Shown here: positions 7,603 through 25,161 of the stretch, piece by piece | Position numbering within the stretch: the first letter of the stretch is position 1 | Layout: every line of letters starts with the position of its first letter | Assembly: GCA_900318935.1 (NCBI GenBank) | Contig: ONMP01000008.1 | Location: 1-35,850 of the forward strand | DNA: 35,850 nucleotides | Direction of reading: 5' to 3' | From: an uncultured Actinomycetes bacterium | Lineage (GTDB): Bacteria > Actinomycetota > Coriobacteriia > Coriobacteriales > Atopobiaceae | Program-made: the position numbers and the translations under genes | Notes under the pieces: generated by a model | Told to the model about the DNA's origin: nothing | Seen by the model: only the letters and a program-made list of their open reading frames with translations | The model's database searches: none

Positions 7603-7974
7603 TTACTTGGGGCGCTTAGCACCGTAGCGGGAACGGGCGCGCTTGCGATTCTGCACGGCCGCGCAGTCGTAGGCGCCACGGATAATCTTGTAACGAACGC
7701 CGGGGAGGTCGCGCACACGGCCACCGCGGATGAGCACGATCGAGTGCTCCTGAAGGTTGTGGCCCTCACCGGGAATGTAAGCCGTTACCTCGATGCCGTT
7801 GACGAGACGCACGCGGGCAACCTTGCGAAGTGCGGAATTCGGCTTCTTGGGCGTAGTCGTGAAGACGCGGGTGCAGACGCCACGTTTCTGGGGGTTGTGC
7901 TGGAGTGCCGCGTTCTTGGACTTGGACGCAACGGACTTGCGACCCTGACGCACGAGCTGGTTAATGGTAGGCAA
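7603..7974 (-). CDS. rpsL: 30S ribosomal protein S12 (Arg at position 88)
   Basis: A 123-residue S12 of the decoding centre, with [13 protein letters not shown] at the N-terminus, [19 protein letters not shown] and [10 protein letters not shown]. Translation begins at TTG (7974), preceded by AAGGAGAAACGC; no ATG or GTG fits better. The loop normally reading GGRVKDLPGVRY reads [12 protein letters not shown], placing Arg (codon CGC, 7713-7711) at residue 88. This is the position where Lys-to-Arg change confers streptomycin resistance in Mycobacterium (K88R) and E. coli (K87R). Lys43 in the PKKPNSA loop is the sensitive type. It is the first gene of the str operon and has its own strong promoter at 8057-8085. 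Confidence 0.98.
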
Positions 7975-8125: not shown

Positions 8126-8191
8126 TGACCACAAACCCGCTGTGGGATCGTGGTCAGTTTTGACCACGATCCCACAGCGGGTTTGTGGTCA
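8126..8191. repeat. REP doublet (REPIN-like), left of the RAYT gene
   Basis: Two 31-base units in perfect inverted order, separated by GTTT: arm A (8126-8156, starting TGACCACAAACCC and ending GTGGTCA) and its exact reverse complement A' (8161-8191). Each arm is itself an imperfect hairpin (TGACCAC...GTGGTCA with CCC/GGG inside). The last arm supplies the TGA stop codon of the RAYT gene. Such paired REPs are the substrate form mobilised by RAYT proteins. Confidence 0.92.
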
Positions 8192-8944
8192 TCGTCTACG
8201 CGCACGACGAACGGTCGATACGCTTAATCCCGTCATTCGAGCCACCTGGCCCGCAGTAATCCCTCGATCAAGCAAGGTGCACAGGAGGTTTGCGCGAGTT
8301 TCTGGCTTCATACCCGACAAATCCTTGAGCTTGCTTGCCCCAAGAGCAGCGTGCGCAATGACCAACGCCTCATCGTCTGTAAGGTGACCTCTCAATCTGC
8401 TGCCAGGAAACGCTAGGCCAGAGAGCTGCATCTTGTGGAACCTGACAAACTCTTCGATACTTCCGAACATTCCCATCAACAAATCCGTACGGCACAGCAA
8501 GGGGGTGTTTTTAAGATGCTCTTGCACGCTGCTCCAGGCATACTGACTGGCAAAGCAGATTCCTGCCACCTGCGGATTCTGATGGATATAGCGAGCGGCA
8601 CACAGAAGGTACGCATCGTTCTCGACCGGCTCGCTCCAAAAGCGGCCCGAATACAGAGTCCCCTCATGCTCATACCGGTTGCGGTAGTGTTCAGTATAGC
8701 CACGGTTTAGCAGCGCCATCGCATCCGAAAGCCGTCGTTTGGGATCCTCAATGAGCATGTGCACGTGGTTACTCATCAGGCAATAAGCGTGATACGAAAG
8801 CTCGCATTCATCGCGAACCTCGCGCATCAGCGCTTTGAACCTTGCGCGGTCTGAATTGTCCTCGAACAATATATGTCCGTCGTTCCCTTTCACGACCGCA
8901 TGGTAAAAGCCCGATTGGCTCAGCTTGCGTGGGGTACCCGACAT
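8189..8944 (-). CDS. REP-associated tyrosine transposase (RAYT, Y1/HUH family)
   Basis: A 251-residue TnpA_REP-type Y1 transposase. The N-terminal GFYHAVVKGNDG is typical of the family. The metal-binding HUH motif is SNHVHMLIE (His60, His62) and the catalytic tyrosine is Tyr119 in ARYIHQNP. A C-terminal helix-turn-helix (about residues 215-247, ending ITAGQVARMTGLSVSTVRRARRR) probably recognises the REP hairpin. These enzymes nick and rejoin single-stranded REP hairpins and are single-copy, often vertically inherited genes that spread REP sequences through the genome. The ATG at 8944 follows GGGAGGAG. Its TGA stop is the first codon of the left REP doublet, and a second doublet lies 55 bases before its start. 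It looks intact. Confidence 0.93.
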   Translation of the reverse strand: MSGTPRKLSQSGFYHAVVKGNDGHILFEDNSDRARFKALMREVRDECELSYHAYCLMSNHVHMLIEDPKRRLSDAMALLNRGYTEHYRNRYEHEGTLYSGRFWSEPVENDAYLLCAARYIHQNPQVAGICFASQYAWSSVQEHLKNTPLLCRTDLLMGMFGSIEEFVRFHKMQLSGLAFPGSRLRGHLTDDEALVIAHAALGASKLKDLSGMKPETRANLLCTLLDRGITAGQVARMTGLSVSTVRRARRR

Positions 8945-8999
8945 GATGGCTCCTCCCTAGCGCGATTATTCGGACGATGCTTTACCTTATACCCACTTT

Positions 9000-9065
9000 T
9001 GACCACGATCCCACAGCGGGTTTGTGGTCAAAACTGACCACAAACCCGCTGTGGGATCGTGGTCA
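9000..9065. repeat. REP doublet (REPIN-like), right of the RAYT gene
   Basis: The same two 31-base arms as at 8126-8191 but in swapped order: A' (9000-9030), spacer AAAC, A (9035-9065). Both doublets are perfect palindromes apart from the spacer. The two inner arms facing the transposase gene are therefore direct repeats. Confidence 0.92.
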
Positions 9066-9152: not shown

Positions 9153-10589
9153 ATGTTTGGACTAAGCTTCATAACCCTCGTCCTCATCGTGGCGCTGGTG
9201 ATCGTCTGCGCCACCTTCCTCCTCTCGGGGTACGTCAAGGCGTCTCCCGACGAGGCGCTCATCATCAGTGGCCTGCATGCCAAGCCCCGTGTCCTCACCG
9301 GCCGCGCCGGCTTCAAGATCCCCTTCTTCGAGCGCACCGACCGCCTCTGCCTCAAGCAGATCTCCGTCGACATCAAGACCGACCAGTACATCCCCACCAA
9401 CGACTTCATCAACGTCAAGGTCGACGCCGTAGCCAAGGTGCACGTCACCGACGACCCCGAGGGCATGCTCCTCGCCGAGCGCAACTTCCTCAACATGTCC
9501 GAGGAGGCCATCGCCGCGTCGCTGCAGGACTCGCTGCAGGGCAACATGCGCGAGATCATCGGCACGCTCGACCTGCGCTCCATCAACACCGACCGCGACT
9601 CCTTCTCCGACCAGGTCATGGCCAAGGCCAGCAAGGACATGGAGAAGCTCGGCATCGAGATCCTCTCCTGCAACATCCAGAACGTCACTGACGAGCACGG
9701 CCTCATCAACGACCTCGGCATGGACAACACGTCCAAGATTCGCAAGGACGCCTCCATCGCCAAGGCCAACGCCGACAAGGAGGTCGCGGTGGCGCAGGCC
9801 GAGGCCGACCGCGAGGCCAACGACGCCCGCGTGCGCGCCGACCGCGACATCGCCGTGAAGCAGAACGAGCTCACCATCCAGAAGGCCCAGCTCAAGACCA
9901 TCGAGGACACCGAGCGCGCGAAGGCCGACGCCGCCTACCGCATCCAAGAACAAGAACAGCAGCGTACAGTGCTCGAGGCCGAAGCCCGTGCCAAGTCCGA
10001 GACCGTTCACGTTCGCGAGCAGGAACTTGCCGCCGAGGTCAAGAAGCGCGCCGAAGCCGACAAGTACAAGGAGATCCAAGAGGCCGAGGCAGCCATGGAG
10101 GCCGAGAAGCGCCACGCAGAGGCAGCCGTCTACGCAGCCGAGCAGGAAGCCCGCGCAACCAAGCTTCGTGGCGAGGCAGAGGCAGAGGCTATCCGCGCCA
10201 AGGGTGTCGCCGAGGCAGAGGCCATCAAGGCCAAGGGCGAGGCCGAGGCTGCCGCACTCGAGAAGCGCGCCGAGGCATTGCAAAAGATGAACCAAGCTGG
10301 TATGGCCGAGATGATGATCAAGGTCCTGCCCGAGGTCGCAGCCGCCGTGGCACAGCCGCTCTCGAGCATCAGCAACGTGAGCGTCTACGACGCCGGCTCC
10401 GGCAACGGCGAGGCAGGCGTCTCCCGCGTGTCGGCCGCAATGCCCGTCGTCATCAAGCAGGTCTTCGACACGATGAGCGACGCCACCGGCGTCGACATGC
10501 GCGAGGTCATGCGCGCGAGCACCTACGACGCGGCTGTCAACCACAACGTCCACGTCGAGGGCGATATCGCCACCGTCACCGAGTCATAA
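9153..10589 (+). CDS. floT: Flotillin-like SPFH-domain membrane protein
   Basis: A 478-residue flotillin (SPFH/Band 7 family). One N-terminal membrane segment (residues 5-27, ITLVLIVALVIVCATFLLSG) is followed by the SPFH domain (about 28-190, including PDEALIISG and TDQYIPTNDFINVKVDAVAKV). A long Ala/Glu/Lys-rich coiled coil (about 195-380) has repeated AEAEAIKAKG units. A C-terminal oligomerisation region follows (QAGMAEMMIKVLPEVAAAVAQPL). Flotillins organise ordered membrane microdomains and scaffold signalling or secretion complexes. The ATG follows AAGGAG. The gene is monocistronic, bounded by the RAYT unit and a strong terminator. A 463-codon frame antiparallel to it is a codon-bias shadow. 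The symbol follows Bacillus FloT by similarity of architecture. Confidence 0.92.
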   Translation: MFGLSFITLVLIVALVIVCATFLLSGYVKASPDEALIISGLHAKPRVLTGRAGFKIPFFERTDRLCLKQISVDIKTDQYIPTNDFINVKVDAVAKVHVTDDPEGMLLAERNFLNMSEEAIAASLQDSLQGNMREIIGTLDLRSINTDRDSFSDQVMAKASKDMEKLGIEILSCNIQNVTDEHGLINDLGMDNTSKIRKDASIAKANADKEVAVAQAEADREANDARVRADRDIAVKQNELTIQKAQLKTIEDTERAKADAAYRIQEQEQQRTVLEAEARAKSETVHVREQELAAEVKKRAEADKYKEIQEAEAAMEAEKRHAEAAVYAAEQEARATKLRGEAEAEAIRAKGVAEAEAIKAKGEAEAAALEKRAEALQKMNQAGMAEMMIKVLPEVAAAVAQPLSSISNVSVYDAGSGNGEAGVSRVSAAMPVVIKQVFDTMSDATGVDMREVMRASTYDAAVNHNVHVEGDIATVTES

Positions 10590-10738: not shown

Positions 10739-13700
10739 TTATTTCTGGCGGAAGGCGTGAGCTGTGGAACCGGGTGCCTTGCCACCCTTGGGAACAAGCA
10801 CTATCTGGATGGCCTCAAGGCGCTTCGCGTGACCCGCCGTGCCCGCGCTGGCACCGTTCTTTGCCCAACCCATCCAGCCAAAGCTTTGGGCATGCACACG
10901 GTAGTACACGTCGTACCGCGTCGCCATCTGACCGGTGAGCTTGATCTGAATGGCCTCAAGGCGCTTGGACTCACCCGTAGTGCCAGAGAGCTTGCCGTCC
11001 TTGGCCCAGGACTTCTCCCAACCATAGGTCTGCACATGGGTGCGGTAGCTGATGCCACCCGAGACCGGAAAGCCGCTCCCCAGCTTGATGTAGATACCTT
11101 CGAGCCGCTTGGACTCGCCCGTAGTGCCACTCGTCTGGCCGTCCTTCTTCCAAGCGGTCTCCCAGCCGTAGGTCTGACGATGCACGCGATAGAGCACCTG
11201 AGGAGCGACAATGCGGAACGTCTGCTTGCACGACCCCGTATAGTTGCCCTTGCCCCTCGCGGTGATGGTAGCCGTGCCGACGCGCAGGTTATTGGCGTAT
11301 GAGAGCGTATAATCAGTGCCTTGAGTCAGCGTCCTGCCGCCCACCCTCACGGAAAGCGCGGGTTTGATGGCCTTACCGGTATAGGCCTGCGCCGCGACTG
11401 TACCCACGGTCGCCTTGGCGATACTCGCGGCCACCACCTTGAACTTGGCTTTCTTCGCGCCGGTGAAGTTACCCTTGCCCGTGACGGTGACGGTTGCCGT
11501 GCCGACCCTCACGTTGTTTGTGTAAGACGCGCTATAGCCAGAGGTCGACACCGCAAGCGAACCCGCCTTTACCGTCGGCGCGGGCTTGAGGGCAGAACCC
11601 GTATAGGCGAAGCTCTTCGAGACGCTCGCCGAGGTGATGGCGGCAGGCGCTATCTTCCATGAGAGCGTCTTTGAACTGGTCGCGCCATCGTCCCAGCAAT
11701 AGTTCTTGTTGTCCGTAAGCGCCGCAGTCGCCTTGTAGCTCCCCGCATTCGTAGCCTTCGTAGTGCCAGAGAGCTTATAGCGCGCGCCTGACGCAACCCC
11801 TACTTTTGCCTTGCCATCATAGACGAAGCCTGTCTTCACCGAAGGCACCTCCACTTCGGCTCGTTCGATGACAAAGTGCTCCTCCCGCACGCCGGCATAG
11901 TCACCCAGTCCCTCAATCCTGGCAGTCGCCTTACCCGCATTCACATTGTTTGAGCACGACAGAGCATAGTCATCGCCTTCCACGAGCACGCTCGAGCCCT
12001 CGTCGTCCTCATACGTTACCGTCACCTCAGGAACCAAAGCCGAACCCGTGTACACGAGGTCGTCCTGCACGTCAATCACGATCCGTCGATCAGCTATGCT
12101 GTGCGGCGTGATCTTGAACCCTTTCGCAACAACACCGGCATAGTTGCCCATCCCCTCGACCGTGAGCGTGGCAGTTCCCGCCATAACGTTGTTCTCATAG
12201 CCAAGCGCATAGTCTTCGCCCTCCACGAGCGTCACCCCGGCATGAACGACCGTCGGCACGGGTTCCACCGCGTCGCCTGTGTATGGAAAGCTCTCGTCGG
12301 CAAGCAACACGTCTTCATCGAGTAGCTCCGCCGGAACGATCTCGAAGTCCGCCGTCCTCGATCCGGTGTAGGTGCCCATGCCCTCAATCGTCACCGTCGC
12401 GACGCCGACATCCACGTCATTCTCGTAGCCCACCGCCCTGTACTCAACGGAATCCACGAGGGTATGGGTCCCCACGAGCATGGAACCACCTTCGGCGTCG
12501 TAGTCATACTGCTCCTGAATCAGCCTGATTGCAGGACGACAGGCTTTCCCGGTGTAGGCAGCCTCGCCAACCACCGCAATCACGGTCTCGTCGTCAAGCT
12601 CGTGCGGCACGACCTCAAATGTCGCGCTAGCGCTGCCCGTATAGTTGCCTGCACCATAGACCGTGACGACCGCCGTCCCGAGATTGACGTTGTTTGAGTA
12701 CTCCGCGCGTTCGGCAAAGTCGACACCCTTCACGAGCGCCATTCCTCCGTCAATCACCTCAAGCACCTCTGGCACGAGCGCATGACCATCCCAAGCTAGC
12801 TCCTCGGCGGCAAGTATCACCTGTGCGCCACCCAACGGACGCGGTGCAATCGCGAACCGCAGCCCCTTGACAAAGAGGCCCTCGTATTCGCCCATACCCA
12901 CGACCGTTGCCGTGCCCACTCCGGCGTCCACGTTGTCCGAGTACTCCACGCGGAAGTCGACGTTGCGCACAAGCATCGCGGACGCGCCGTCAAACCGAAG
13001 CTCAATCTCGACATCGGGCTCCTTTGGCGTGTAATCGAATACGTACCCACCGTCCGGCAGCGCAAGACTCATCGCGAGCGTACCGAGGCCCTCGACGTCC
13101 ACTATGCTTCCCCCACTGGCAAGCTCAACGGCAGCGAAGGCGTCCGCCTCACCGTAGCCCGTCTCTTCGTCCCATCCCAGCTCGCCGATGTCATGTGCGC
13201 TCGCATAAAGAATGCTCGTCGCCTCATCAGCACTCAGCTCGGGATTTGTGGCGAACTCAAGCGCAAGAACGCCAGCGACCTGAGGCGTGGCCATGGACGT
13301 ACCTGAGAGGGTGCCGAACAAGTTCCCCATAAAGGTGCTGTAGATGCGATTGCCCGGCGCCGAGATGTTCTTGCCGCTCGTCGTATGCACGCCACCCTGG
13401 CCAGCAACGTTGTAGTTCGAAGTCGCGCTGCGACTCACTACAAAGGAGCCAGATGGATCGTTGCCTGCACTCGAGGGCACGCCAGCAAGGTCCATCACGC
13501 TCACGACTGATTCATCGTCGCTCGGAAAGGCACGAAAGGGCACCACGCCCTTGTTTAAGGAACTGTTGCAGGATGCGACGACGGTGACGATTCCGTTGTC
13601 CCGCGCCGTTCGAATCGTTCGTATAAGCGCCTCATCCGATACGCTCGGAAAATCCGCCTCATTGCCAATGTTCATGCCAATGCTCATGCTCACAACGCGC

Positions 13701-14656
13701 ACGTTGTAGTCGTCTGCCACATCCAAGACGTATCTAAAGGCTGTCACCAGGTCAGCAGTGGTAACGTTACCGCTATCGCTGAAAGCCTTGATGGGCACAA
13801 CACCGGCGTTGTAAGAAATGCCCGCCACCCCATAGCCGTTGTTTGTGACGGCACCGAGGATGCCGAGCACATGGGTACCGTGGTTGTTGGCTCGCAACGG
13901 CGAAACATCATACATGTCCTCGATGTCACCGACGCGAGCGGCATGAGCATTGTAAGCGCTACCAGCGATGATATTTGCCTCGAGGTCACGGTGAGCAATG
14001 TCGAAACCGCTGTCGATGACGGCGACGGCAACCCTGCCCTCGCACGTCGCGATTCCCCAAGCATCAAAGGCGCGCATGCTCTTGAGGGCCCACTGCTCGC
14101 TCACGATTTTGTCATCAACTCCCACCGAAGCAAGGCCGAGCAGCTCGACCAAAGGCTCGGGTTCATTCTCGGCAAGATAATAGACGTAGTTGGGCTGAGC
14201 GCCCGTCACAGCCGACGTCGCGGACTGGAGTACGGAGTTTACCGCGTCCTCCACGCCGGCGCCGTCCTCGACCTGTACAGAAACGACACCAGACGTGATC
14301 TCTTCGGGCGAAGGTTCTCTCGCCAGAACCTCATCGGCCTGGGCAAGCGATGCTTCGACGTCTGCAGGAGCCGCTTCGGGGTCGACGCACACAAGCACCT
14401 CTCCGGGTACATACTGCACGCCATCAGGCATCTCGAACACCTTAGCAGGTTGGCCTTCTTCGGCGGATGCCGGAACCGCCAAGCAAAGCAAGCATGCCAC
14501 CACAAGGAGAAGACATGCGAACCCGCCGACTCCACCGCCAGAAGGCCCGCTTATGCACAAGGTCGCTATCTCATTTGCGACACGAGCCGCCCAAGGAGTA
14601 CTGCCATGAGAGAACGCGGCAGCGCGTGAACGGATTCGATGCGAATGCCGATACAT
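10739..14656 (-). CDS. Secreted subtilisin-like serine protease with Ig-like repeats and three ChW repeats
   Basis: A 1305-residue S8 protease. A long positively charged leader precedes the hydrophobic signal core (about residues 46-62, ending VPASA). A propeptide-like domain follows (about 75-165, with YVPGEVLVC). The catalytic domain (about 190-520) has Asp215 (AVIDSG), His259 (NNHGTHVLG), oxyanion Asn364 (ASCNS) and Ser454 (GTSMATPQVAG), so it should be active. Next come about eight Ig-like repeats, each with YTG near its start and a GxGNYTG turn. Three C-terminal ChW (PF07538) repeats, type YRVHxQTYGW...GTTGESKRLEAIQIKL, are a likely cell-wall or cell-surface binding module. There is no LPXTG signal. 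The ATG at 14656 follows AAGGA; an in-frame TTG at 14662 is less likely. It is a tandem paralogue of the next gene. Confidence 0.92.
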   Translation of the reverse strand: MYRHSHRIRSRAAAFSHGSTPWAARVANEIATLCISGPSGGGVGGFACLLLVVACLLCLAVPASAEEGQPAKVFEMPDGVQYVPGEVLVCVDPEAAPADVEASLAQADEVLAREPSPEEITSGVVSVQVEDGAGVEDAVNSVLQSATSAVTGAQPNYVYYLAENEPEPLVELLGLASVGVDDKIVSEQWALKSMRAFDAWGIATCEGRVAVAVIDSGFDIAHRDLEANIIAGSAYNAHAARVGDIEDMYDVSPLRANNHGTHVLGILGAVTNNGYGVAGISYNAGVVPIKAFSDSGNVTTADLVTAFRYVLDVADDYNVRVVSMSIGMNIGNEADFPSVSDEALIRTIRTARDNGIVTVVASCNSSLNKGVVPFRAFPSDDESVVSVMDLAGVPSSAGNDPSGSFVVSRSATSNYNVAGQGGVHTTSGKNISAPGNRIYSTFMGNLFGTLSGTSMATPQVAGVLALEFATNPELSADEATSILYASAHDIGELGWDEETGYGEADAFAAVELASGGSIVDVEGLGTLAMSLALPDGGYVFDYTPKEPDVEIELRFDGASAMLVRNVDFRVEYSDNVDAGVGTATVVGMGEYEGLFVKGLRFAIAPRPLGGAQVILAAEELAWDGHALVPEVLEVIDGGMALVKGVDFAERAEYSNNVNLGTAVVTVYGAGNYTGSASATFEVVPHELDDETVIAVVGEAAYTGKACRPAIRLIQEQYDYDAEGGSMLVGTHTLVDSVEYRAVGYENDVDVGVATVTIEGMGTYTGSRTADFEIVPAELLDEDVLLADESFPYTGDAVEPVPTVVHAGVTLVEGEDYALGYENNVMAGTATLTVEGMGNYAGVVAKGFKITPHSIADRRIVIDVQDDLVYTGSALVPEVTVTYEDDEGSSVLVEGDDYALSCSNNVNAGKATARIEGLGDYAGVREEHFVIERAEVEVPSVKTGFVYDGKAKVGVASGARYKLSGTTKATNAGSYKATAALTDNKNYCWDDGATSSKTLSWKIAPAAITSASVSKSFAYTGSALKPAPTVKAGSLAVSTSGYSASYTNNVRVGTATVTVTGKGNFTGAKKAKFKVVAASIAKATVGTVAAQAYTGKAIKPALSVRVGGRTLTQGTDYTLSYANNLRVGTATITARGKGNYTGSCKQTFRIVAPQVLYRVHRQTYGWETAWKKDGQTSGTTGESKRLEGIYIKLGSGFPVSGGISYRTHVQTYGWEKSWAKDGKLSGTTGESKRLEAIQIKLTGQMATRYDVYYRVHAQSFGWMGWAKNGASAGTAGHAKRLEAIQIVLVPKGGKAPGSTAHAFRQK

Positions 14657-14691
14657 AGGCAATCCTTGGTCAGCGTGTCATATATATACCC

Positions 14692-20778: not shown

Positions 20779-22782
20779 ATGAGGTGGACCGCACGAACGT
20801 ATCTCTTTGCGCTCCTGGCCTTTGTCGTGGCATGCGCGATGCTCTATACCGCTACGCCTGCCTTGGCCGATGAGCAGCTAGCAACCGCAGAACAGAACGA
20901 GGCCATCGCCGACGCGGCAGAAACCATGGCCTCCGATGAGACGACCTCCACCGACGCCAAGGATTCCACGTCAAAGAAGAAGAAAGAAGAGCCCCCGCCA
21001 CCCAAAGAGTATCTCGTCCACTACGATTCAAACGGCGGCGAGGGATACATGGAGGATTCCGTCTTCATCGAAAAAAAGCCCGCTCCACTCGCACGTTGCA
21101 CGTTTACACGGGCAGGCTATACCTTCGAGGGCTGGAATACTGCGCCCGACGGCACTGGCGCGTCCCTCGCCGACGCTGTCGACGTGCGCGACCTCCTGAG
21201 CGACGCCGGCCTGACCGTCTACGCGCAGTGGGGTTCGCAGATTTACGTCATCCGCTACACCTCGGGCGTTCCCACACAAGACACGTCGCAGGTCTCTGGC
21301 TCGATGCAGTCCCAGCTCGTGGTCCACGACGCCGAAGTTGCGCTCAAGGATTGTGCGTTCGAGCGCGTAGGTTACACCCCCAAGTGTTGGGTGGACCAGA
21401 ATGGCGCGCAGCACGAGTTCGACGAGCATGGCGTCAACTATTCCACCGCAACCGACACCCGATCGTGGGAACTCGCCACTATCGAGAACGGCATTCCTGA
21501 TGAGGGCAAAGACGGACACTGGTCCTGCCAGGGATCGGTAGTCTTTGCGGGAGACGACGGCTCGCTCTGCGCTGCGATGGCGTTTTACTTCGCCGGGTCG
21601 GGGTACTCCAAGGGCTCGCTCGACAACTACGACTCCATGATCAAGGTCGTCAACCTCGATACCGGGGAAGAGTTGAAGAGCAAGCGCGGACTCATGCTCG
21701 AACACGCCAACGATATCGCCTATCGTCCGGACAACAAGCACTTCTACGTGGCGCAGGGCGGCATCAACGAGGGCTTCCCCGATGGCATCGTCGAGCTCGA
21801 CGAAAACCTTGACGAGGTGCGCACCGTGACGCCCGAGGGCACGCACAACATTTGGAACCTCTCGTACTCCGATGGACGCTTCTATGCCATCGGCAACGTT
21901 AACGGCGACAGTTTCGCCCGCGGTAACCCAAACGGCGAGACGAGCGACCTCATCGTGCTCGACGATAACCTCAACCTACTCGAGATCCACACGGTGGACT
22001 ACTCGCTGCAAGGCTTCTCTGGGCAGGGCATGGTCTGCGACGGCAGCTTCCTCTACTCCATCCTCATGAATTTCGGCGAGCACGAGGCTGTGACGAAGCA
22101 ACGGCTCGCCATATTTACGCTCGAAGGAGAGCCGCGCGGTACGCAGCGCATCGACATTCTGGAAGAGGTCGAATCCGCTTCAACACTCGACGGCCGCATG
22201 TATTTCTCGACCAACGGCGGCAACCACGGCACCATCTACGGTACCGATCTCGCAAGCGCAACGATGTCGGTGGTGTGGGAGGCAAATCCCTACCAGATCG
22301 CCTTTGACGAGGGTGGTTTTCCCGCGACGGACATGCCCAAGACCGTAGACACCCATTACGACGAAGAGGTGGCTTTGCCCACCGAGCCGCCTGCGTGTCC
22401 TGGTTATGATTTCGTGGCGTGGACCGAGAATCCCGACGGATCGGGCCAGAGCTTTACCCCGGGCGAGACGGTACATAATCTTGCCGAGTCGGGCACCGTC
22501 ACGCTGTACGCCCAATGGCGTCGAGTTCAAGTCCCGTTCGTACCTGACAATGGCTCGATGACCGACAGCAGCAGCATCGAACCAGAACTTGAAGCCCCCG
22601 CGCCGCGCAGCGCACCGAAGCATCTGGCACAGATGCTTGCGTTGTGCACCGCAATCGTGCTTTTAGGAGCACAAAAAAGACTCCATGGTGACAGGGGGGA
22701 CAGTCCCCTGGGTACCCAGGGGACTGTCCCCCTTTTCCCTTTTTCCCTTTTGCGTACGTTGCACCCTGGGTTAACAGCGTAG
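20779..22782 (+). CDS. Secreted InlB-repeat protein with central propeller-like domain
   Basis: A 667-residue secreted protein starting at ATG 20779 after AGGAGG (the open frame begins earlier at 20731). The signal peptide is residues 1-30 (TATPALA). A KKKKEEPPPP linker leads to a first InlB B-repeat (PF09479 type; HYDSNGGEGY... FTRAGYTFEGWNTAPDGTG... TVYAQW, about 78-151). The central part (about 240-500) has repeated short strand motifs (NDIAYRPDNKHFYVAQGG, DGIVELDENL, DLIVLDDNLNL) suggestive of a beta-propeller. A second InlB repeat follows (EVALPTEPPACPGYDFVAW... TVTLYAQW). It ends with a hydrophobic helix (LAQMLALCTAIVLLG) and Lys/Arg, a membrane anchor without a clear LPXTG. The last 35 codons run through a 38-bp palindrome (22695-22732), probably a later insertion that changed the C-terminus. 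Ligand is unknown. Confidence 0.82.
   Translation: MRWTARTYLFALLAFVVACAMLYTATPALADEQLATAEQNEAIADAAETMASDETTSTDAKDSTSKKKKEEPPPPKEYLVHYDSNGGEGYMEDSVFIEKKPAPLARCTFTRAGYTFEGWNTAPDGTGASLADAVDVRDLLSDAGLTVYAQWGSQIYVIRYTSGVPTQDTSQVSGSMQSQLVVHDAEVALKDCAFERVGYTPKCWVDQNGAQHEFDEHGVNYSTATDTRSWELATIENGIPDEGKDGHWSCQGSVVFAGDDGSLCAAMAFYFAGSGYSKGSLDNYDSMIKVVNLDTGEELKSKRGLMLEHANDIAYRPDNKHFYVAQGGINEGFPDGIVELDENLDEVRTVTPEGTHNIWNLSYSDGRFYAIGNVNGDSFARGNPNGETSDLIVLDDNLNLLEIHTVDYSLQGFSGQGMVCDGSFLYSILMNFGEHEAVTKQRLAIFTLEGEPRGTQRIDILEEVESASTLDGRMYFSTNGGNHGTIYGTDLASATMSVVWEANPYQIAFDEGGFPATDMPKTVDTHYDEEVALPTEPPACPGYDFVAWTENPDGSGQSFTPGETVHNLAESGTVTLYAQWRRVQVPFVPDNGSMTDSSSIEPELEAPAPRSAPKHLAQMLALCTAIVLLGAQKRLHGDRGDSPLGTQGTVPLFPFSLLRTLHPGLTA
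22695..22732. repeat. 38-bp perfect palindrome of the GGGGACAGTCCCC type
   Basis: The sequence is its own reverse complement over 38 bases, centred on GGTACC, with GGGGACAGTCCCC and GGGGACTGTCCCC as arms. It lies in the 3' end of the InlB-repeat gene and is followed by runs of CCCTTTT, so it may also work as a terminator. The arms differ from the REP units at 8126-9065, so it represents another repeat family. Confidence 0.9.
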
Positions 22783-25161
22783 TCGCGAAGGCTTCATGAG
22801 TCGCATGCCGTTAAGCACCACGATGAGTGCCACGCCCGTGTCGGCAAAGACGGCCGCGCCCATGCCTGCCAGCCCCAGCGTCACAAGCACAAAGACGAGC
22901 GCCTTGACGCCGAGAGCAAAGGCGATGTTTTCTCGGACGATGTTCATCGTACGATGCGCAAGGGCAAAGAACTGCGGCAGTTCGGCCAAGCTGTTTGAGA
23001 GAAGCGCGACATCAGCGACCTCCAGGGCCGTGTCGGAGGCGGCGGCTCCCATGGTGATGCCGATGTCCGCCTTTGCCAGAGCTGGCGCGTCGTTGATGCC
23101 GTCGCCCACCATGGCAACCTTCTGCCCCGCTCCTTGGATCTCGCCGATGCGTGCGAGCTTGTCTTGCGGCATCAACTCAGCAGAAACCCGATCAACACCC
23201 AACTCGTCGGCAACGGACGCGGCAACAAGCGCGTTGTCGCCCGTGAGCATCTCGAGAGCAAGTCCCTCATTGGCAAGCTCGGCCATTGCCTGCGAAGCCT
23301 CCGGTCGCGGCGCATCCGCCACCGCGATGACGCCCACTACGGCACCGCCACGCACAACCACCAGCGGTGTGCTGCCAGACGCGCTCATGCGAGCGGCCTC
23401 GTCGTCCACGTCCTTCTCAACGACTGTAATCTCATGTGCGTAGGCAAGCTTGCCCACCACGCACAACTCCCCTGCCACTTCACCACGAATGCCAGATGCT
23501 GCAATTTCTTCGACACCCTCGGCCTCCGGCACCATCACGCCAAGCCGCTCGGCTTCGGCAACGACCGCACGCGCAAGCGGATGCGTTGACTTCTTTTCGA
23601 GCGCCGCCGTCACCGAAAGAAGGTCCTCCGCGGAAGCAAGTCCCAACGGCACGATCTCGCGTACCTCAGGCTCGCCCTTCGTGAGCGTGCCCGTCTTGTC
23701 AAAGGCGATGGCTCTCACGTGGGTGGCAATGTCGAAATACGCGCCACCCTTCACGAGCACGCCCATACGAGCCGCACGTGTAAGTGCCGAGACGAACGAC
23801 ACCGGCGTGGAGATGACCAGCGCACATGGACACGCGACTACCAGCAACGAACATGCACGATAAGCCCAATCGCGCCACAGTTCGATCGTCATGCCACCCT
23901 GCATGACAGCAAGCGCCACGGGCACGCCGATACCCAGAATCAATGCACCGACAATAACGAGAGGCGTGTACGCCGCAGCGAAACGGTTGACAAAGCTCTC
24001 GTACGGCGCCTTCTCGGCCTGAGCCCCCTGCACCTCGCTCACGATGCGCGCCAAGGTGGTGCAGTCCTCGTCCGCCGTGACGAGCACGTCGACCACGCCC
24101 GACGTATTGAGCGTGCCCGCAAACACCTCAGCACCCTCGCCCTTATCCTGCGGGACCGACTCACCCGTGACAGGCGCCTCGTTGAACGAGCTGCTTCCAT
24201 GGGTGATGATGCCGTCGAGTGGCACGCGCTCTCCTGGCAGCACGCGAATGGTGTAGCCCTCCTCAACACCCGAGGTCTGCACGTCCACCGTTCCCCCCTC
24301 AGGAGAGACAACATGCGCAACCGACGGGGCGAGTTCCATGAGGTCACGCACTGATCCAGCCGTCTTGCGCATGGACCAGCCTTCTAGCCACTCCCCCACT
24401 TGGTCGAGGAAGATGACAATCGCCGCGTCCCCAAAGACCGACGGGTCGCCTGTAAATCCGATGATGAGGGCGCCGATGACGGCAATGCCCATGAGGACGT
24501 TCATATCGGCAGTGCGACGACGCAGCGCCGCAAAGGCCATGGGAGCTATGAAGACCAACCCAGCCACGGCAGCTGCCACATAGAAGGGTATGGCACGCTG
24601 TTCATTGCCCAGCGCATGCTCTGAAACAAGCCCCGCGACCAACATGAATGCCGAAGTGCACATGAGGATCTTTTCGCGGTTCTCGTCAAACCAAGAGCGC
24701 TCTGCCTCGAGCTCAGCAAGTTCTTCCTTGCTCATCTTGAGGTCTTCGCCGCATGAACGAACGCAGGCGAGTACGGCACGCTTGCAAGCCCCGACATCAG
24801 TGTCGTCGGATGCGACAACTTCAAGCGTCGCCGTCGCGTACACCAAGCGCGCGTCTTCGACCTCCTTGAGCATGCGCACGGCGTTTTGGACCCCAAGGGC
24901 GCAGTTGGGGCAGTCGAGGCCTACGACGGTATAGGAGAAGGTGGGCTCTGCAGAGAGTTCGCGCGCTGGCATCTCATCGTGATGGTGATGCCCGCAATCG
25001 CAGTGGTCGTCGTGGCAGTGCTCGTGCTCGTGCCCGTGCTCGTGCCCGCAGTCGCAGTGGTCGTCGTGGCAGTGCCCGTGGTCGTGGCCGTGGTCGCAGT
25101 GGTCGTCGTGGCAGTGCCCGTGGTCGTGGCCGTGGTCGTGATGCTTCTCCTCGTGCGACAT
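22771..25161 (-). CDS. zntA: Zn2+/Cd2+/Pb2+-exporting P1B-type ATPase with His-rich N-terminus
   Basis: A 796-residue heavy-metal exporter. The first 65 residues carry 26 His with Cys and Asp in near-repeats of the HGHCHDDHCD type. A heavy-metal-associated domain follows with GLDCPNCA. Membrane helices flank the actuator loop (GESVPQDK). The metal-channel motif is ACPCALVIS, followed by the phosphorylation site DKTGTLT, the THPLA loop and MVGDGINDAPAL. CPC plus GLDCPNCA is typical of the Zn/Cd/Pb subgroup. It lies 2 bases after the ArsR-type sensor gene and shares its promoter and operator. Its 3' end overlaps the convergent InlB-repeat gene by 12 bases. The His-rich region may buffer or sense metal; that is inference. 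Confidence 0.95.
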   Translation of the reverse strand: MSHEEKHHDHGHDHGHCHDDHCDHGHDHGHCHDDHCDCGHEHGHEHEHCHDDHCDCGHHHHDEMPARELSAEPTFSYTVVGLDCPNCALGVQNAVRMLKEVEDARLVYATATLEVVASDDTDVGACKRAVLACVRSCGEDLKMSKEELAELEAERSWFDENREKILMCTSAFMLVAGLVSEHALGNEQRAIPFYVAAAVAGLVFIAPMAFAALRRRTADMNVLMGIAVIGALIIGFTGDPSVFGDAAIVIFLDQVGEWLEGWSMRKTAGSVRDLMELAPSVAHVVSPEGGTVDVQTSGVEEGYTIRVLPGERVPLDGIITHGSSSFNEAPVTGESVPQDKGEGAEVFAGTLNTSGVVDVLVTADEDCTTLARIVSEVQGAQAEKAPYESFVNRFAAAYTPLVIVGALILGIGVPVALAVMQGGMTIELWRDWAYRACSLLVVACPCALVISTPVSFVSALTRAARMGVLVKGGAYFDIATHVRAIAFDKTGTLTKGEPEVREIVPLGLASAEDLLSVTAALEKKSTHPLARAVVAEAERLGVMVPEAEGVEEIAASGIRGEVAGELCVVGKLAYAHEITVVEKDVDDEAARMSASGSTPLVVVRGGAVVGVIAVADAPRPEASQAMAELANEGLALEMLTGDNALVAASVADELGVDRVSAELMPQDKLARIGEIQGAGQKVAMVGDGINDAPALAKADIGITMGAAASDTALEVADVALLSNSLAELPQFFALAHRTMNIVRENIAFALGVKALVFVLVTLGLAGMGAAVFADTGVALIVVLNGMRLMKPSRLRC

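Follow-up and report, generated by a model that had tools for sequence, protein, structure and literature searches.

A RAYT-like transposase gene of a Coriobacteriia genome and its probable partner family of tag-free, REPIN-like hairpin repeats

The window that was analysed, a 35,850-nucleotide stretch of Coriobacteriia DNA, carries a gene for a RAYT/TIRYT-type transposase that is flanked on either side by a long hairpin doublet, and related hairpins are dispersed through the rest of the genome (G000, a metagenome assembly of 3.8 Mb in 397 contigs, 88% complete). The locus is probably best understood as a transposase gene together with its cognate REPIN-like repeat family, the arms of which would have been spread by the enzyme while the linkers were inverted by host processes. 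The locus and its neighbours are composed as follows.

7603-7974, minus strand: rpsL, one neighbour of the transposase locus
8126-8156, plus strand: outer 31-nt arm A of the left doublet (exact match)
8157-8160, no strand: left linker GTTT (AAAC in the sister genome G009)
8161-8191, minus strand: inner arm A' of the left doublet (exact match), its final three bases being the transposase TGA stop
8189-8944, minus strand: RAYT/TIRYT-type Y1 transposase gene, 251 aa, with HUH (H60/H62), Y119---N123P124 and a C-terminal HTH
9000-9030, minus strand: inner arm A' of the right doublet (exact match)
9031-9034, no strand: right linker AAAC (GTTT in G009)
9035-9065, plus strand: outer arm A of the right doublet (exact match)
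9153-10589, plus strand: SPFH-like gene, the other neighbour

All four arms are copies of one 31-mer, TGACCACAAACCCGCTGTGGGATCGTGGTCA, with zero mismatches, where none would be expected from shuffled sequence. The left doublet (8126-8191) reads A-GTTT-A' and the right doublet (9000-9065) A'-AAAC-A, exactly as a first-pass annotation had described them: two perfect 66-bp palindromes made from identical 31-mers. By itself the 31-mer is an imperfect hairpin (TGACCAC-AAA-CCC-GCTGT-GGG-ATC-GTGGTCA), and computed folding predicted that each doublet forms a perfect 31-bp DNA hairpin of about -43 kcal/mol (z about -15 to -16). The same annotation was right that one palindrome overlaps a stop codon, as the TGA at 8189-8191 forms the border of the left doublet; the reading frame that it closes is intact. 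An inversion between the two doublets was considered as the source of their opposite arm orders and ruled out on paper, because inverting a doublet preserves its order. Indeed, the inverted A-GTTT-A' is A-AAAC-A', so the earlier annotation was correct that the second arm order does not arise from merely inverting one of the doublets.

The 251-aa protein matched Pfam Y1_Tnp above the cut-off (E 1.6e-12) and contained a C-terminal HTH (HTH_7 at E 2.5e-5; HTH_23 was weaker). Across 20 homologues, the residues of the HUH motif (H60, H62) and of the class 2 signature Y---NP (Y119, N123, P124) were invariant. The NCBIfam model REP_Tyr_transpos performed better on this protein than the IS200 model, and its curated cut-off was missed (57.6 versus 80 bits) although the E-value was 1.2e-15. 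A profile search of solved structures identified TnpArep (4er8, E 1.4e-5), whereas a single-sequence search had returned a spurious repeat protein alone. The 88% complete genome contained one match to the transposase, which is thus low-copy, unlike a multi-copy IS. Judged from its predicted domains, the protein is RAYT-like (HUH, Y---NP), with an HTH as in TIRYT or subclass 2.1, where it is placed by domain order only. Transposase genes of this type were present in 31 of 60 relatives. The earlier remark that RAYTs are best known from Gram-negative bacteria agrees with the literature, in which Actinobacteridae have only subclass 1.1 (PMC6006769), but it does not extend to the Coriobacteriia, which carry many.

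The repeat family was defined by the pattern TGACCAC-N3-CCC-N5-GGG-N3-GTGGTCA with up to three mismatches allowed. This gave 93 matches in the own genome and 0 with the reversed pattern, and 92 arms could be extracted in 58 places, comprising 33 inverted doublets, 24 single arms and one same-sense pair. The first-pass annotation had named the absence of the 31-mers elsewhere in the genome as the observation that would speak against a RAYT-REPIN system; with about 92 family copies, a RAYT-type protein and a cognate dispersed repeat family, its proposal was largely borne out. The exact window 31-mer occurs in this genome at the four window sites only, and the variant adjoining the transposase gene is not the commonest of the family. 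Most doublet linkers (26 of 33) are 4 nt long, and 22 of these 26 are AAAN or NTTT. When the 58 places were inspected by eye, no recurrent GTAG was found in linkers or flanks and no target-site duplication was seen in the flanks. The repeats are REPIN-like but lack the GTAG tag, so that the label REP, as used before, does not hold in its classical sense. The loop ACAGC comes first in 21 doublets and GCTGT in 12; since both arm orders are common genome-wide, the two opposite orders in the window are ordinary. They would be explained most simply by a separate history of each arm, and the two doublets around the transposase would be one instance of a dispersed population.

Among relatives, the repeats were found together with this particular transposase. 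The sister genome G009, where the transposase at the corresponding locus is 98% identical, had at least 117 pattern matches, while zero were detected in 12 of 14 other genus-mates. G010 and G014 had 4 and 7-8 matches, and their transposases are merely about 34-35% identical, with no close one present. At other Coriobacteriia transposases the gene lies between palindromic doublets whose sequence is unrelated to the window family (L075, L076, L077, L078 and L096) or between terminal inverted repeats, many of which carry GGGGACAG or GGGGACGG. A strict centre-based palindrome finder missed many of the flank repeats of these other transposases, and the search was repeated with BLAST. The motif GGGGWSAS, found in the majority but not all of the TIRYT flanking repeats, is absent from the window locus and present as GGGGACAG or GGGGACGG at many relatives. 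Each transposase is paired with its own repeat, which is the pattern known for RAYTs. From this directly observed association, and from known RAYT biochemistry, we infer that the HUH-tyrosine protein transposed the repeats and was the likely past spreader of the 31-nt hairpin to about 58 places, mostly as AAAN- or NTTT-linked inverted doublets.

G009 is about 94-96% identical at the locus and has the same transposase gene and both doublets at the same position. By both flanks, 35 of the 58 repeat places of the own genome could be mapped to G009, and all 35 were filled there, though filled places are over-represented in this sample. None of the mapped loci was a clean empty site, which is weak evidence, since the sister DNA compared was centred on repeats. 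Differences between a single arm and a doublet were observed at a few places (L113, L141, L150 and L125), and arm order was retained in almost all orthologous doublets. The repeat places are old and largely stable now. This does not favour the earlier description of the system as recently active.

What does differ between the sisters is the linker. Both window linkers are inverted in G009 (AAAC left, GTTT right), as are those at L114, L116, L118 and in the second L125 doublet. A 2-nt linker, GA/TC, was likewise inverted, the loop was inverted in both arms at L131/L159, and at L145 a single 31-nt arm was exactly inverted between unique flanks. The earlier suggestion that the swapped order records hairpin processing by the enzyme finds no support in these data: both orders are common, the order is kept between orthologues, and the linker is what inverts. 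All perfect inverted repeats in the extracted DNA served as the test set for inversion. Among the REP doublets whose arms are 21 nt or longer, 12 cases were informative and 5 of them showed an inverted linker; an unrelated palindrome with 29-nt arms was inverted too (L211/L186, TTTG versus CAAA), whereas none of 16 short hairpins outside the family (arms of 9-15 nt) was. Altogether, about 40% of informative long hairpins were inverted between the sisters, one unrelated hairpin family included. The inversion of an unrelated long palindrome and the 0 of 16 among short hairpins point to a general process acting on long hairpins, most likely one of the host that involves cruciforms or replication. 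Chloroplast DNA is known to undergo comparable minute inversions at hairpins (reviewed in PMC5492656). Probably, the doublets act as cruciform or hairpin DNA, and host replication or cruciform repair would hold the arms near-identical while flipping the 4-nt linker and, rarely, one entire single arm.

These inversions were seen between draft metagenome assemblies, and short-read assembly error at palindromes could be their source, which we consider rather unlikely. One G009 contig (C325, L189) is along its entire 7,254 bases a perfect fold-back centred on a fully palindromic, ATAT-linked doublet, which is an assembly artefact, and an inversion frequency of about 40% is not far from that of randomly oriented linkers. 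By reasoning, however, a word spanning flank, arm and linker should set the orientation for k above about 36, while below this k the many arm copies would break contigs. Moreover, the exact inversion of the single arm at L145 between unique flanks argues against an artefact.

It is also conceivable that the transposase itself inverts linkers and arms by cutting the single-stranded hairpin and rejoining it in the opposite sense, so that orders and linkers would be its footprints. TnpAREP enzymes do cleave single-stranded REP DNA and join it again in vitro (PMC8266576), and inversions at REP doublets are frequent. Nevertheless, the L211/L186 palindrome family, for which this genome yielded no cognate gene, is also inverted, arm length seems to be what chiefly governs inversion, and the arm order, which such an activity should scramble, is retained in almost all orthologous doublets. 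We therefore regard inversion by the transposase as unlikely and prefer a host process acting on repeats that the enzyme once spread.

The overlap with the transposase stop codon is one of many. The outer TGA of the repeat closes an open frame 100 or more codons long at 25 of the 58 places (43%) in the own genome and at 27 of 68 places in G009. The control in the same DNA was about 7% per TGA, which makes a chance expectation of about 14% for a place, as each has two edges; some of the nominal cases may be chance open frames, the genome being G+C-rich. Compared with its nearest relatives without the repeat, the L145 gene stops at precisely the same residue, and the L147 gene, likewise compared with relatives without it, stops within a few residues of the corresponding point. 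These shared ends indicate that at L145 and L147 the repeat occupies the natural gene end, with no truncation. The TGA edge often supplies the stop of a neighbouring gene, which places many copies at gene ends, and a hairpin in this position may terminate transcripts or make them more stable. REPs lying no more than 15 nt from a stop codon were reported to lower translation in E. coli (PMC12306157).

The repeats also delimit segments that differ between the sisters. At three places with a single doublet in the own genome (L107/L166, L110/L199 and L122/L184), G009 contains additional genes enclosed by repeats on either side. These repeat-bracketed genes, missing from the matching places of the own genome, are the following.

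L166, 9115-13959
L199, 1102-3698
L184, 9816-11614

At L139/L167, a bracketed segment of 0.5 kb (L167, 8905-9538) is inverted and 79% identical, compared with 93-95% for its flanks. In G009, 17 neighbouring repeat places lie no more than 3.5 kb apart, where we estimate roughly five under uniform placement. Recombination between repeats is enough to account for both the repeat-bounded segments and the clustering. A bolder reading, which we consider unlikely, is that the hairpins are invertible and exchangeable boundaries: flipping frequently where they stand, overlapping stop codons and enclosing genes that have been acquired, lost or turned round between the sisters, they and a group-1-like RAYT would shape gene-cassette turnover in rumen Coriobacteriia.

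The many copies on stop codons, the other repeat-bracketed genes and the three repeat-bounded segments that differ between the sisters might suggest that the hairpins are common structures of gene ends, acting as terminators or mRNA stabilisers, that were multiplied by recombination and happen to bracket a transposase among many genes. We find this improbable, because the family tracks the window transposase across the genus and unrelated transposases carry unrelated doublets at both sides. Least probable by far is an isolated IS-like element inserted once beside rpsL with repeats confined to its ends: although repeats flank the gene on either side and their exact variant is confined to this locus, the idea is contradicted by about 92 family copies elsewhere, an arm order unlike that expected of terminal inverted repeats, and the presence of one gene copy only.

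A transposase gene with a cognate dispersed family, as we favour, has its closest parallel in the TIRYT/TIRtrons of Di Nocera 2013 (PMC3733652), which correspond to subclass 2.1 of Quentin 2018 and group 1 of Bertels 2017, as mapped in PMC6006769. Common to both are a Y1 transposase with HUH, Y---NP and a C-terminal HTH, and flanking repeats instead of GTAG REPs. The repeats of the TIRYT Stenotrophomonas maltophilia ORF 1152 are self-complementary, dimeric and multi-copy (PMC3733652), and repeats of a comparable general kind were described beside such transposases in other phyla (Di Nocera 2013, PMC3733652). Unlike TIRYT, the window locus has at each end a perfect doublet of the 31-nt hairpin, about 92 dispersed copies and a Coriobacteriia host. 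With the REPINs of group 2/3 RAYTs (Bertels and Rainey 2011, PMC3116915; PMC8266576) the family shares inverted hairpin doublets, dispersed copies and a transposase flanked by its own repeat. It differs from them in having no GTAG tetranucleotide, the tag used by the biochemically studied enzymes, in linkers of 0-4 nt as opposed to longer spacers, in arms that are imperfect palindromes with a 5-nt loop, and in that both arm orders are common. As in the chloroplast inversions (PMC5492656), a short loop between inverted repeats flips between close relatives; here, however, this concerns bacterial repeat doublets, about 40% of informative sites and two sister species.

REP-like flanks were reported as not found for subclass 2.1 (Quentin 2018, PMC6006769). 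This largest RAYT branch (group 1, subclass 2.1) was without an identified REP-like partner until now, and the window locus offers a clear one, a tag-free hairpin in a phylum with little-studied RAYT-REPIN systems. If confirmed by reads, the linker inversion would make hairpin or cruciform formation in living cells traceable from sequence alone, and whether transposase or host is its cause would become testable.

Other palindromes were observed as well. Positions 22690-22737 of the window form a perfect, loopless GGGGGACAGTCCCC palindrome with 19-nt arms, the motif being that of the flanking repeats of other TIRYT-type transposases; no second TIRYT-type gene to match it was found in the own genome beyond 8189-8944. 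A similar palindrome is located at L192 75-117, and at least two more long palindrome families, TTTTCAGGTTCAAATGCGCACTGTGTA and GGACAGGGGGGACGGGGGAGTTTGTCC, recur in these genomes (L204 18261, L207 4207, L154 2405, L128 607, L112 1260 and L167 2935). Elsewhere in the window, a subtilase-like, secreted protein of very large size, in which domains are repeated, is encoded at 10739-14662; stretches of it recur about 3-4 kb onward (13488/16829 and 14252/18665), which suggests a tandem paralogue. Finally, the heavy-metal P-type ATPase encoded at 22771-25161 has an N-terminal His/Asp/Cys-rich tandem repeat, HGHDHGHCHDDHCD, the DNA repeat being located at 24983-25140.
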